Assembly: GCF_016907235.1 (NCBI RefSeq) | Contig: NZ_JAFBBO010000001.1 | Span: forward strand, 2,418,001-2,482,000 | Origin: Oerskovia jenensis | GTDB lineage: Bacteria; Actinomycetota; Actinomycetes; Actinomycetales; Cellulomonadaceae | DNA length: 64,000 nucleotides | Reading direction: 5' to 3' | Shown: in pieces, positions 51,798-55,055 of the stretch | Layout: each line of letters starts with the position of its first letter | Numbering within the stretch: position 1 is the first letter of the stretch | Notes under the pieces: model-generated | Database searches by the model: none | What the model saw: only the letters and a program-made list of their open reading frames with translations | What the model was told of the DNA's origin: nothing | Position numbers and translations under genes: made by a program

Positions 51798-52109
51798 GTG
51801 CCGGAGCACACGACGCAAGGGGGAGTCCGCATCGACGACTCCGGACCTCGATGGACGATGTGGGGCGAGGTCGACGCCGCGGTCCAGGACCGTTCCGAGG
51901 ACGACCTCGTCCGCTCTCTCCAGCGCGCGGACGGCCCCGTGACGATCGACCTGAGCGAGGTCACGTTCATGGACTCGGGCGGCCTGCGGCTGCTGTACCT
52001 GTCCCTGCTGGCCGGGGGCGTGGCCCCTGTCCTGGTCGGTGTCCCGGAGCGCATCAGGGACCTGCTCGAGATCAGCGGCGTCCTCGCGCAGTTCACGCTC
52101 GTCGACTGA
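51798..52109 (+). CDS. STAS-domain anti-anti-sigma factor
   Basis: 103 residues, a single STAS domain. The phosphorylatable serine is Ser60 in EVTFMDSGGLRLLYL, the SpoIIAA/RsbV signature. It starts at a GTG. In the known scheme, the unphosphorylated form binds an anti-sigma kinase and frees a sigma factor. The anti-sigma-like kinase is 88 bases downstream and the matching phosphatase is the phytochrome protein at 52755-55055. The set is thus a complete partner-switch without a visible sigma factor. Confidence 0.93.
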   Translation: MPEHTTQGGVRIDDSGPRWTMWGEVDAAVQDRSEDDLVRSLQRADGPVTIDLSEVTFMDSGGLRLLYLSLLAGGVAPVLVGVPERIRDLLEISGVLAQFTLVD

Positions 52110-52197
52110 CACCGTCCCGTCGCCGCGGCCACCACCCCCGGCCGCGACGCCGCACCCGTCCACCCGTACGACTCACCGGACCCATCGGAGGAACCTC

Positions 52198-52668
52198 TTG
52201 GACACCTCGATCGCCTCGTCCCGTCCGCCCGAGAACTTCCACGTGGTCCGCGTCTGGCAGCTCGACTCGATCGACGAGCTCTCGACGTTGCGCACCTCGC
52301 TCCATCTCGAGCTGACGGGCCGCCCGCTCGCACCCGACGGCGCCCTCGCCGAGGTCCCCGAGAAGATCGTGCTCGTCGCGAGCGAGCTTGCGACCAACGC
52401 GCTGCGGCACGGGCGCCCACCGACGACGGTCCAGCTCCTGACCGACGGCGAGGAGTACATCGTCGACGTGATCGACCAGGACACGAGCCGAGCGCCCGTG
52501 GTCGCCGCGCCGCGCCTGCCGGGCGACGGCGGCTTCGGGCTCGTGCTCGCGCAGCGGATCGCCCTGGACGTGGGCTGGTTCGTCGCGGACGGCAAGCACG
52601 TCTGGGCGAGGCTGGGTGTGCCCAAGGACGTGGTGAGACCGCCCCGACCTGTCGCGGCGGTCCCCTGA
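52198..52668 (+). CDS. Anti-sigma-factor-like serine kinase (HATPase_c_2 family)
   Basis: 156 residues. The ATP-binding N-box is LVASELATNALRHGRPP (Asn67), then VIDQDTSRAPVV and the G-box DGGFGLVLAQRIALDVGWF. This is the RsbW/SpoIIAB-like family, cytoplasmic. The start is taken as TTG at 52198, because GGAGGA at 52187-52192 is spaced correctly for it. It follows the STAS gene and may be co-transcribed. Some family members bind other partners and do not control a sigma factor. Confidence 0.9.
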   Translation: MDTSIASSRPPENFHVVRVWQLDSIDELSTLRTSLHLELTGRPLAPDGALAEVPEKIVLVASELATNALRHGRPPTTVQLLTDGEEYIVDVIDQDTSRAPVVAAPRLPGDGGFGLVLAQRIALDVGWFVADGKHVWARLGVPKDVVRPPRPVAAVP

Positions 52669-52692
52669 CCGCTCGTTCCCGCCGAGCTCCCG

Positions 52693-52731
52693 CCGAGGGC
52701 CGGTCTGCGCGAGGCGCAGGCCGGCCCTCGG
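52693..52731. terminator. Bidirectional terminator
   Basis: CCGAGGGCCGG (52693-52703) and CCGGCCCTCGG (52721-52731) with inner TCTGCGC/GCGCAGG pairing. It lies between convergent stops at 52668 and 52755. Confidence 0.88.
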
Positions 52732-52733
52732 TC

Positions 52734-52782
52734 GTCGTCAGGGCTCGGCCGTCGTCAGGCTCGGCCGTCGTCAGGCTCGGCC
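52734..52782. repeat. Three tandem 16/17-base repeats at a gene end
   Basis: GTCGTCAGGGCTCGGCC (52734-52750) is followed by two copies of GTCGTCAGGCTCGGCC (52751-52766, 52767-52782). They cover the last codons and stop of the phytochrome gene. Confidence 0.85.
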
Positions 52783-55055
52783 GGGTCGGTCCGACGGCGC
52801 AGCACCAGCAGCGTCGCGTCGTCCTCCGACGCGGGGTCCCGGGTCTCGCGCAGCACGGCGTCGACGTCGCCCACGTGCTCGGCGAACGTCCCGGCGAGGC
52901 GGCGCAGGCCCACCTTGAGGGACTCGTCGCGGCGCTCGAAGAGCCCGTCGCTGTACAGCACGAGCGCGCCGCCCGGCGCGATCGACGTGGTCCCGGCCTC
53001 GAACCGCAGCGCGCCCAGCCCGAGCGGCGGACCGCCCAGCAGCCGGCCCCACACGACGCCCTCGCCCGGCACGAGGAAGAAGGGCGGCGGGTGACCCGCC
53101 GTCACGTACTCGACCGAGCCCCTGTCGAGGTCGACGACCGCGACGACGAGCGTCGCGATCTGCCCCGGCATGGTCCACCGCACGGTCTCGGCGACCTGCT
53201 CGACGGCCCCGCGCGCGGTCCCGGCCTGCACGAGAGCGGCGCGCAGCGTGTTGCGGAGCTGCCCCATCGAGGCGGCCGCCTGCAGCCCGTGGCCCGTGAC
53301 GTCCCCGACGACGAGCCCGAGCGCGCCCGAGGGCAGGCGCAGCGCGTCGTACCAGTCACCGCCGACGAACCCGCCCCCGGCGGGCTCGTACCGCGCGGTG
53401 ACGGTCCAGCCCGGTGTGTCGGGCAGCGACTCGGGGAGCAGGCTGCGCTGGAGCGCCTCGGCCGCGCGCACGTCGCGGCGCCCGGCCAGGTAGAGCGCCT
53501 CGACGAGGTGGCTGCGCAGCGCCCCCGCGGTCTCGACGGCGTCCTCGGTCCAGGGATCGCTGTGCCCGCTCACGACCTCGCGCCAGCGGTCGAACGACTT
53601 GCGGGGGCTGAGCCGGACGGTGTCGCCCTCGCTGCGCGCGATGGCCTTGTTGTGCGGGTCGCCACCCCAGTCGACGCTGCGCAGCACCTCGTCCCGCAGC
53701 CAGAGCACGACCTGGCCGTCGTTGAGGTGCACGCCCAGCACGCCCGCGACGTCGGGCAGGTGCGCCGCGAGGTCCGGGGCCGCGACGCGCAGCGAGTCGA
53801 TCGCGAGGACCTCGTCGTCCGCGGCCGCGAGACGGTCTGCGAACCAGTCGGCGAGCAGGGCGATCCCTGCGTCGTCGGGCACGTGCCCGAGCGAGGCGAA
53901 GCGCCCCTCCGCGACGACCACGGCCCCGTCGGCACCCACGAGGTCGAGCAGGCGAGCGTCGGCCGTGAGCGCCTCGACGAGCGCCGTGTCCTGGTCGCGG
54001 CTGTCGGCGACGAGGCCCGCGAGCAGGCGCGACGACGTGCGTGACGCGGCCAGGCGGTCCTCCTCGCTCTGCGCGACGAGCAGCACCGACAGGGCGGCGC
54101 CCAGGAACTCCGCGGCCGCGCGCACCGCGTAGGGCGGGTGGTGCGGCCCCGAGTAGTGGTGGCACGCGATGAGGCCCCAGAGCTTGCCGTCGCGCAGCAG
54201 CGAGATCGACATGGACGCGCCCACGCCCATGTTCGCGAGGTACTCGAGGTGGATGGGGGAGACGCTGCGCAGCGTCGAGTACGTGAGGTCGAGCGGCTGC
54301 CCCGTGGTCGGGAGGTCGGTGGGGACGATCTCGCACGGGACGTAGCCCACGTCGTCGATCAGCCGGATCCAGTTCTTCTCGTACAGCGCGCGGGCCTGGC
54401 GCGGGATGTCGGTCGCGGGGTAGTGCAGCCCGTGGAACGAGTTGAGGTCCTCGCGCTTGGCCTCCGCGACGACCTCGCCGTTGTGGTCGGCGTCGAAGCG
54501 GTAGATCATCACGCGGTCGAAGCCCGTGAGCTGCCGCACGTGCCGCGCCGCCGTCCCGAACAGCTCGGGCAGCGTCCCGGCCCTGTCCAGGTCCGCGAGC
54601 GCCGCACGCACGGACTGGTACGTGTTGGGGAAGCTGAGGGGGCGCACGACGGCGGGCTCGAGCTCGATCACGACGACGGGTTCGGCACCGGCGCGCAGCG
54701 GGGGTCGGTGCAGGATCGCGTCGGTCGGGGTCGCGCGCGCCGCGCCGGTACGGATCTCGACGGGGTTGTGCGGCGCGAGGTCGGGATGCTGCGCGACGTG
54801 CGTGAGGAGCCTCGGGCCGTCGTCGGCGCCCAGGACCTCGGACAGGTGGGCGCCGAGCACGTCCGCGGTGCCGCGCCCCAGGACCTCGGGCACGTTGGTC
54901 GAGCACTGCACCACGTGCCCGTCGCTCTCCCGGACCACGAGGAGCGCCCCGCGGGGCTGGATCCGCCCGGGGATGTGGATGGGCTCGCGCGCGCAGTTCT
55001 CGAGGTCGATCGTCTCGGCCGGGCTGAGAAGTTCTTCGTCCGTGCTCTGGGTCAT
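52755..55055 (-). CDS. Bacteriophytochrome with PP2C/SpoIIE-type phosphatase output
   Basis: 766 residues from the ATG at 55055 (GGGAG upstream). PAS: the bilin-attachment Cys21 in IDLENCAREPIHIPG and RIQPRGALLVV. GAF: HYPATDIPRQARALYEKNW (the DIP motif at 216-218), His269 in SPIHLEYLANMGVGA, and LWGLIACHHYSG. PHY: WGGDPHNKAIARSEGD and the tongue motif PRKSF (484-488). Output is a PP2C domain with GGDWYDAL (Asp567, Asp570), VVGDVTGHGLQAAASMGQLR, LYSDGLFERRDE and EDDATLLVL. So this is a red/far-red photosensor that is a phosphatase, not a kinase. It is probably the RsbU-like partner of the STAS protein at 51798. No heme oxygenase gene is near, so biliverdin must come from elsewhere. Confidence 0.93.
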   Translation of the reverse strand: MTQSTDEELLSPAETIDLENCAREPIHIPGRIQPRGALLVVRESDGHVVQCSTNVPEVLGRGTADVLGAHLSEVLGADDGPRLLTHVAQHPDLAPHNPVEIRTGAARATPTDAILHRPPLRAGAEPVVVIELEPAVVRPLSFPNTYQSVRAALADLDRAGTLPELFGTAARHVRQLTGFDRVMIYRFDADHNGEVVAEAKREDLNSFHGLHYPATDIPRQARALYEKNWIRLIDDVGYVPCEIVPTDLPTTGQPLDLTYSTLRSVSPIHLEYLANMGVGASMSISLLRDGKLWGLIACHHYSGPHHPPYAVRAAAEFLGAALSVLLVAQSEEDRLAASRTSSRLLAGLVADSRDQDTALVEALTADARLLDLVGADGAVVVAEGRFASLGHVPDDAGIALLADWFADRLAAADDEVLAIDSLRVAAPDLAAHLPDVAGVLGVHLNDGQVVLWLRDEVLRSVDWGGDPHNKAIARSEGDTVRLSPRKSFDRWREVVSGHSDPWTEDAVETAGALRSHLVEALYLAGRRDVRAAEALQRSLLPESLPDTPGWTVTARYEPAGGGFVGGDWYDALRLPSGALGLVVGDVTGHGLQAAASMGQLRNTLRAALVQAGTARGAVEQVAETVRWTMPGQIATLVVAVVDLDRGSVEYVTAGHPPPFFLVPGEGVVWGRLLGGPPLGLGALRFEAGTTSIAPGGALVLYSDGLFERRDESLKVGLRRLAGTFAEHVGDVDAVLRETRDPASEDDATLLVLRRRTDPAEPDDGRA

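Follow-up and report, generated by a model that had tools for sequence, protein, structure and literature searches.

The window analyzed here, a stretch of 64,000 nucleotides of Oerskovia jenensis (contig NZ_JAFBBO010000001.1, positions 2,418,001 to 2,482,000), contains three neighboring genes that we consider likely to form a dedicated partner switch driven by red/far-red light. The three encode a bacteriophytochrome with a SpoIIE/PP2C phosphatase output (referred to as the phytochrome-phosphatase), a STAS protein and a HATPase, and the partner that they would control is predicted not to be a SigB/F/G-type sigma factor. The genome around the window is 4.45 Mb in a single contig. An initial annotation, made from the sequence and its open reading frames, had called the three genes a light-to-stress switch; its coordinates and every residue that it cited were confirmed by reading of the open reading frames, Pfam scans and alignment. 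The stress half of the proposal is not supported, as described below.

The phytochrome-phosphatase gene (52755-55055, minus strand, ATG start) encodes 766 residues, and its product is 94% identical to the O. rustica protein and 92% identical to the O. turbata protein. The full photosensor that had been proposed, with a phosphatase output, is present: PAS_2 (residues 21-135, 54651-54995), GAF (residues 162-314, 54114-54572), PHY (residues 348-521, 53493-54014) and SpoIIE (residues 576-755) all exceed the Pfam cut-off, and the same scan reported no histidine-kinase domain. Bacteriophytochromes are recognized by an N-terminal Cys that binds biliverdin, a DIP motif, a conserved His and a PRxSF tongue. 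The O. jenensis protein has all of these, namely Cys21 (codon at 54993-54995, the expected biliverdin ligand), DIP at 216-218, His269 and PRKSF at 484-488. The phosphatase part (52791-53423) contains the motifs GGDWYD (565), GDVTGHG (584), YSDG (701) and DD (745-746). In an alignment of 121 rows, which represent 120 distinct proteins as the window protein is counted twice, Cys21 is kept in 116 rows, and none of the 121 shows a change at Asp567, 570, 585, 703, 745 or 746. The closest solved structures in the PDB are phytochromes. The NCBIfam equivalog for bacteriophytochrome BphP matches residues 13-519 with 355.7 bits, below its cut-off of 1040, because the output end differs. Residues 494-588, which run from behind the PHY tongue through a helix to the phosphatase, have a single length in 120 of the 121 rows, and an AlphaFold2 monomer model (predicted local distance score, pLDDT, 87.5; predicted template modelling score, pTM, 0.68) shows one continuous signalling helix at residues 504-539 (53439-53546), from PHY into the phosphatase.

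The other two genes are on the plus strand and face the phytochrome-phosphatase gene. The first (51798-52109, GTG start) encodes a STAS-domain protein of 103 residues of the anti-sigma-antagonist type, with PF01740 (E 1.9e-10) and STAS_2 above the cut-off and TIGR00377 below it (44 bits against 53.45). Its predicted phosphorylatable residue is Ser60 (codon 51975-51977, in the motif FMDSGG), and both Asp59 and Ser60 are present in 45 of 45 rows (matches of at least 60 bits, with the window protein again counted twice). The second (approximately 52198-52668, with a likely but uncertain TTG start) encodes a HATPase_c_2 protein of about 156 residues, the predicted STAS kinase, which matches PF13581 with 31.2 bits (cut-off 27.4), while an RsbA-type match falls below its cut-off. 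The N-box residues Glu63 and Asn67 are invariant across 42 relatives linked to a phytochrome-phosphatase gene and 25 unlinked ones. These results agree with the initial assignment of a STAS antagonist beside an anti-sigma-like HATPase; we call the latter RsbW-like rather than an anti-sigma factor because no SigB/F/G factor scores above the cut-off in the genome. Between the convergent genes lies a hairpin (52693-52731, arms 52693-52710 and 52714-52731) with 18-nt arms that are 94% complementary (-46.7 kcal/mol, z -5.4). The annotation of a terminator thus holds in part: the hairpin is strong and probably serves both strands, but it has no T run and is absent from the output of a consensus terminator scan.

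Evidence for a partnership comes from relatives in which the trio stays together. Two overlapping sets were examined, an even draw of 150 genomes of the family and the best 80 of 329 relatives from a scan of named genomes, with genera assigned by hand from titles. In the first set, 74 genomes have a relative at E<=1e-40, and 68 of these read as phytochrome-phosphatase genes; in the remaining six, either the match falls short of the full span or only a short form (see below) is present. One of the 68 (L173, genome G145) is in two overlapping pieces, which could be a sequencing error or a broken gene. The STAS and HATPase genes are both within 2 kb of the phytochrome-phosphatase gene in 45 of the 68. 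Among the 80 named loci, both are that close in 17: Oerskovia (5/5), O. flava (1/1), Cellulosimicrobium (5/5), Sanguibacter (2/2), Luteimicrobium (1/1), Isoptericola (1/1), Cellulomonas PhB143 (1/1) and other Cellulomonas (1/14). The 80 include one duplicate, L040 and L076: contig14 of Cellulomonas sp. HZM carries this 18-kb locus in two identical, inverted copies, which may be due to a fault of assembly or form a genuine large inverted repeat.

The arrangement of the genes varies. Most linked loci are convergent like the one in O. jenensis, one (L127) has STAS, HATPase and phytochrome-phosphatase on one strand, and in Sanguibacter the STAS gene is convergent and the HATPase gene is turned round. 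Two Luteimicrobium-type loci (L021 and L125) have the order STAS-HATPase-phytochrome-HATPase on one strand, so that two HATPase genes flank the phytochrome-phosphatase gene. The flanking aminotransferase and DnaJ-C28-like genes (P0004 and P0005) were found solely in the five Oerskovia loci among the 80, and therefore the trio is kept while its flanks change. In a tree of 42 linked and 25 unlinked HATPases, most of the latter from 20 chosen loci, the two kinds occupy largely separate branches, with four label changes against a shuffled mean of 20.4 and none of 500 shuffles as low. By a hand estimate from the number of such genes in a genome (between one and six, and two in O. jenensis), the chance of finding one within 2 kb is on the order of 0.2% per genome. 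Conservation in relatives, as judged from these sequence comparisons, indicates that the arrangement exceeds chance. The coupling of kinase, substrate and phosphatase, which the initial annotation had offered with a neighborhood check as its test, thus gains comparative support from a linkage that is kept across gene orders, strands and genera, though not in all relatives.

Outside the family, STAS and/or HATPase genes occur within 1.5 kb in six of 28 class-level loci, five of which were checked by Pfam; these encode less similar proteins, and one locus (L238) has phytochrome, STAS and HATPase on one strand. In Mycobacteriaceae, a STAS-like gene, named by eye from weak profile matches, lies within 300 nt upstream in nine of 34 named loci. 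A conserved fourth partner was also sought by clustering the genes called in 161 loci, 2177 in total; the listing covered the 60 largest clusters, with positions for 24. In the clusters shown, the trio has no further constant neighbor across genera; by eye, the two most widespread of the other clusters resemble ABC ATPases and short-chain dehydrogenases. Spread of the phytochrome-phosphatase gene by plasmids was likewise rejected: none of the 78 matching plasmid records reaches 80% coverage of the query, and in the 12 records listed the match is confined to the photosensor part.

Beyond the linkage of the genes, the mechanism that we propose is drawn from what is known of these protein families. 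The PAS-GAF-PHY part would bind biliverdin, supplied by the heme oxygenase of the genome, at Cys21 and toggle between two light states. The change of state would travel along helix 504-539 in a dimer to the SpoIIE/PP2C domains and alter their phosphatase activity. The HATPase would phosphorylate Ser60 of the STAS protein and the phytochrome-phosphatase would take the phosphate off, and the balance of the two would set whether the HATPase holds the STAS protein or its other partner. A sensor on a helical linker has a parallel in RsbU-type phosphatases, whose dimeric coiled-coil linker permits sensor exchange (PMC12143880); the word 'phytochrome' does not occur in the main text of that paper.

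No sigma gene lies beside the trio, and this had led the initial annotation to suggest a distant or non-sigma target. The present search agrees on the absence nearby and narrows the target to one that is not of the SigB type, as none was found genome-wide. The SigB/F/G model finds nothing above its cut-off in O. jenensis, where the best match (133 bits) is the principal sigma factor and a third, partial match has 31 bits. The same is true of all 150 family genomes, in which at most 17 candidates were scored per genome, so that a very divergent member could escape. Nearly all of the best matches there, at about 130-134 bits, are principal-type factors. Candidates of 213-221 bits occur in three genomes of a single genus (g15), none of which has a phytochrome-phosphatase relative. 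As a positive control, 11 genomes reached through their loci were searched; the best matches were 299-313 bits in seven of them (five Mycobacteriaceae and two Geodermatophilaceae), and the Georgenia, Cellulomonas, Cellulosimicrobium and Luteimicrobium genomes had no match above the cut-off. Some genomes with the linked module, such as those of the Sanguibacter group (g20), have three to four sigma matches, all below the cut-off. The word stress is therefore not supported, and the target is probably not a SigB/F/G-type sigma factor. In Mycobacterium and Geodermatophilaceae, where the phosphatase is mostly without the pair, one might guess that it feeds the SigF-type network of the genomes tested.

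What the HATPase may bind instead is the principal sigma factor, a FliA-like factor, an extracytoplasmic function (ECF) factor or a non-sigma protein. Of the two region-3 sigma factors of O. jenensis, one is the principal factor; the other, which has a flagellar hook gene close by, is FliA-like by eye and context, with no model above its cut-off. One explanation is that the HATPase targets the principal factor (or FliA) and so throttles housekeeping or flagellar transcription. There is a precedent in Chlamydia, where RsbW is described as binding the primary sigma66 (PMC4552016), and several genomes with the linked module (e.g., G007, G010, G011, G021 and G024) have a single sigma match at E<=1e-20, which is principal-type. 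On the other hand, the O. jenensis genome has 12 HATPase_c_2 matches above the cut-off, some of them probably histidine kinases, and one common target for so many is unlikely. We regard this explanation as possible but unlikely. Elsewhere in the O. jenensis genome (L210, C1:4442500-4453000) there is a stressosome-type cluster, again in the company of no SigB-type factor above the cut-off; it encodes RsbRD_N-STAS, STAS and HATPase proteins, a HATPase-SpoIIE fusion, a histidine kinase and a response-regulator-SpoIIE protein.

Several observations weigh against a dedicated switch of the three proteins. Neither partner gene is within 2 kb in 22 of the 68 family genomes, and one more has only the STAS gene; among the named loci, 60 of 80 have neither gene and three, all Mycobacteriaceae, have only a weak STAS match. 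Where the pair is not nearby, the phosphatase must have different partners or serve a different purpose. The O. jenensis genome has 12 STAS_2 matches at E<=0.01, including that of the window (six are above the cut-off), and therefore the specificity of the partners is unproven; SpoIIE matches occur in seven further genes. In addition, the AlphaFold2 model is a monomer, so a continuous helix within the dimer is a matter of inference. The STAS and HATPase genes could be neighbors without being partners, belonging to another circuit while the phosphatase acts on other STAS proteins, and the fact that convergent genes are usually not co-transcribed would fit such a separation. We doubt this, as the linkage is seen in eight of the 13 genera of a 55-row subset despite changed order and strand, including the one-strand orders, the linked HATPases are largely a distinct set, and the linkage is mostly kept after the sensor has decayed (see below).

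Light sensing by the switch has indirect support from the chromophore residues, the co-occurrence of heme oxygenase and the decay of the sensor in one lineage. O. jenensis has a heme oxygenase gene (PF01126, 213.5 bits, C1:2929606-2930208). Such a gene is present in all 62 family genomes whose protein keeps Cys21 and His269 and in one of the five whose protein has lost both residues (Fisher two-sided 6.5e-6, with the split gene L173 left out). It lies within the fetched stretch in 14 loci, 11 of which have it no more than 400 nt away from the phytochrome gene; six family loci were confirmed by PF01126 and the mycobacterial ones by clustering with them. The five genomes without Cys21 are one lineage and therefore not five independent events, and one of them keeps its heme oxygenase. 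The enzyme is in any case widespread among the family genomes (111 of 150 genomes, and 43 of the 76 that have no phytochrome-phosphatase relative at E<=1e-40). Four of the six genomes outside the 68 have it, G146 weakly; of the two without it, G018 has the short form only and G134 is a fragmented draft with a phytochrome match that lacks the phosphatase part.

Between seven Cellulosimicrobium-type and four Oerskovia-type proteins, PAS-GAF identity is 70.9%, PHY 59.5% and linker plus phosphatase 59.1%. PAS-GAF is thus the best-kept part where the ligand residues are kept, which implies that the eye is under strong constraint. A Nudix gene that resembles isopentenyl-diphosphate isomerase lies at L206:4322-4960 (about 64.3-65.0 kb; NUDIX by Pfam, the rest by eye), and in four Oerskovia and seven Geodermatophilaceae loci a gene of its cluster lies no more than 8 kb from the phytochrome gene, by chance or as a pigment link. 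A carotenoid connection was set aside, as inspection by eye showed no further carotenoid gene next to it in O. jenensis.

In the lineage with the decayed photosensor, five proteins (L151-L155) have lost Cys21, His269 and the tongue motif, and five shorter ones (L168-L172, four of them scanned by Pfam) consist of a PHY remnant and SpoIIE with no PAS-GAF. In a tree of 96 rows, made by a quick method with a midpoint root (Mycobacteriaceae thinned to six and Geodermatophilaceae to four), the two are sister groups on one branch (Shimodaira-Hasegawa-like approximate likelihood ratio test, SH-aLRT, 95; groups 86 and 98) that is nested among Cys-bearing proteins. The Cys-less proteins are 39.7% identical to the four Oerskovia-type proteins in PAS-GAF, 51.7% in PHY and 60.6% in linker plus phosphatase; the low identity of the first and the kept identity of the last mean that constraint was lost mainly in the eye. 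STAS and HATPase genes adjoin every one of the five Cys-less genes and, of the five short genes, L168, L169 and L171. The other two short genes (L170 and L172), which are second short copies in their genomes, do not have the pair alongside. The pair is therefore mostly kept beside the decayed sensors, and the core of the partner switch outlives its eye. Three of the Cys-less loci (L153, L154 and L155) also have an additional HATPase gene, located about 1.1-1.4 kb from the phytochrome gene's 5' end; it is diverged and forms its own branch in the HATPase tree.

As the module persists in this lineage despite the loss of chromophore residues, the switch can apparently operate with no light input, and one could propose that the phytochrome part does not function as a photosensor in O. 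jenensis either, acting, for example, as a redox, temperature or constitutive regulator. We consider this quite improbable, as the O. jenensis protein has intact chromophore and tongue residues, heme oxygenase accompanies every one of the 62 such proteins, and PAS-GAF is better conserved than PHY and the phosphatase between Cellulosimicrobium- and Oerskovia-type proteins. Instead, we lean towards a history in which the Cellulomonadaceae and Promicromonosporaceae have a red/far-red partner switch with a target that is not of the SigB type, and in which one lineage lost the eye and kept a constrained phosphatase and, mostly, the STAS and HATPase genes. The core would thus be portable, and the sensor dispensable or exchangeable.

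A conventional general stress switch of the SigB/F type with its sigma factor far off in the genome, as such trios are established to control in Bacillus and Mycobacterium, is strongly disfavored and very improbable, considering the SigB/F/G results described above for O. jenensis, the 150 family genomes, the g15 candidates and the controls. The RsbU/RsbP-RsbV-RsbW system for Bacillus SigB and SpoIIE-SpoIIAA-SpoIIAB share with the Oerskovia trio a phosphatase of the sensor-PP2C kind, a STAS protein with a Ser and a HATPase kinase, and the Bacillus SigB switch likewise joins sensor to phosphatase by a helix. The Oerskovia trio differs in having a full bacteriophytochrome as its sensor, genes that are convergent in most linked loci, and neither an adjoining sigma gene nor a SigB/F/G factor above the cut-off in the genome. 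Light inputs to SigB include YtvA (LOV-STAS) and LOV-SpoIIE proteins, which respond to blue light through a flavin. Like the Oerskovia trio these bring light into a partner switch, but there the combination is blue light, flavin and SigB, and here a bilin and no SigB.

A figure legend in PMC9587094 gives bacteriophytochromes with a SpoIIE/PPM output as one class of effectors, and the O. jenensis protein, with the same PAS-GAF-PHY-SpoIIE order, is a member. The topic of that paper is diguanylate cyclases, and STAS/HATPase partners, sigma factors and chromophore loss are not mentioned in the parts of it that concern us. Its PadC couples a phytochrome to an enzyme by a central helix, as predicted here; PadC linkers are described as falling into several length families, whereas the present family has nearly always one length and a phosphatase in place of the cyclase. 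Chlamydia RsbW-sigma66 (PMC4552016) and Vibrio SypE-SypA (PMC8256260) use the kinase/STAS/phosphatase logic with an output that is not SigB-type, but they have other sensors and are not described there as light-driven. A literature search, limited to titles and the starts of abstracts and covering few subscription journals, found no paper on phytochrome-SpoIIE proteins with STAS/HATPase neighbors, nor any on the missing sigma factor or a blind lineage. The parts and the fused architecture are already known; the linked, SigB-less and partly blinded form was not found described.

Such a switch would unite phytochromes with partner switching, both of them well known, in soil bacteria that do not photosynthesize. 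It raises three questions: which process a STAS/HATPase pair governs in genomes where searches find no SigB-type factor, whether a helical linker of the kind seen in cyclases and kinases also lets a phytochrome drive a PP2C phosphatase, and what becomes of a signalling module after the decay of its photosensor. In addition, a serine phosphatase under the control of light would be of use in optogenetics.

One further observation concerns the DNA to the right of the window. By eye, L206:5294-9103 (about 65.3-69.1 kb) has a gene resembling C5-cytosine methylases that faces two genes, one of them HATPase-like. The codon-based gene caller skipped this stretch, and it may be an acquired defence island.

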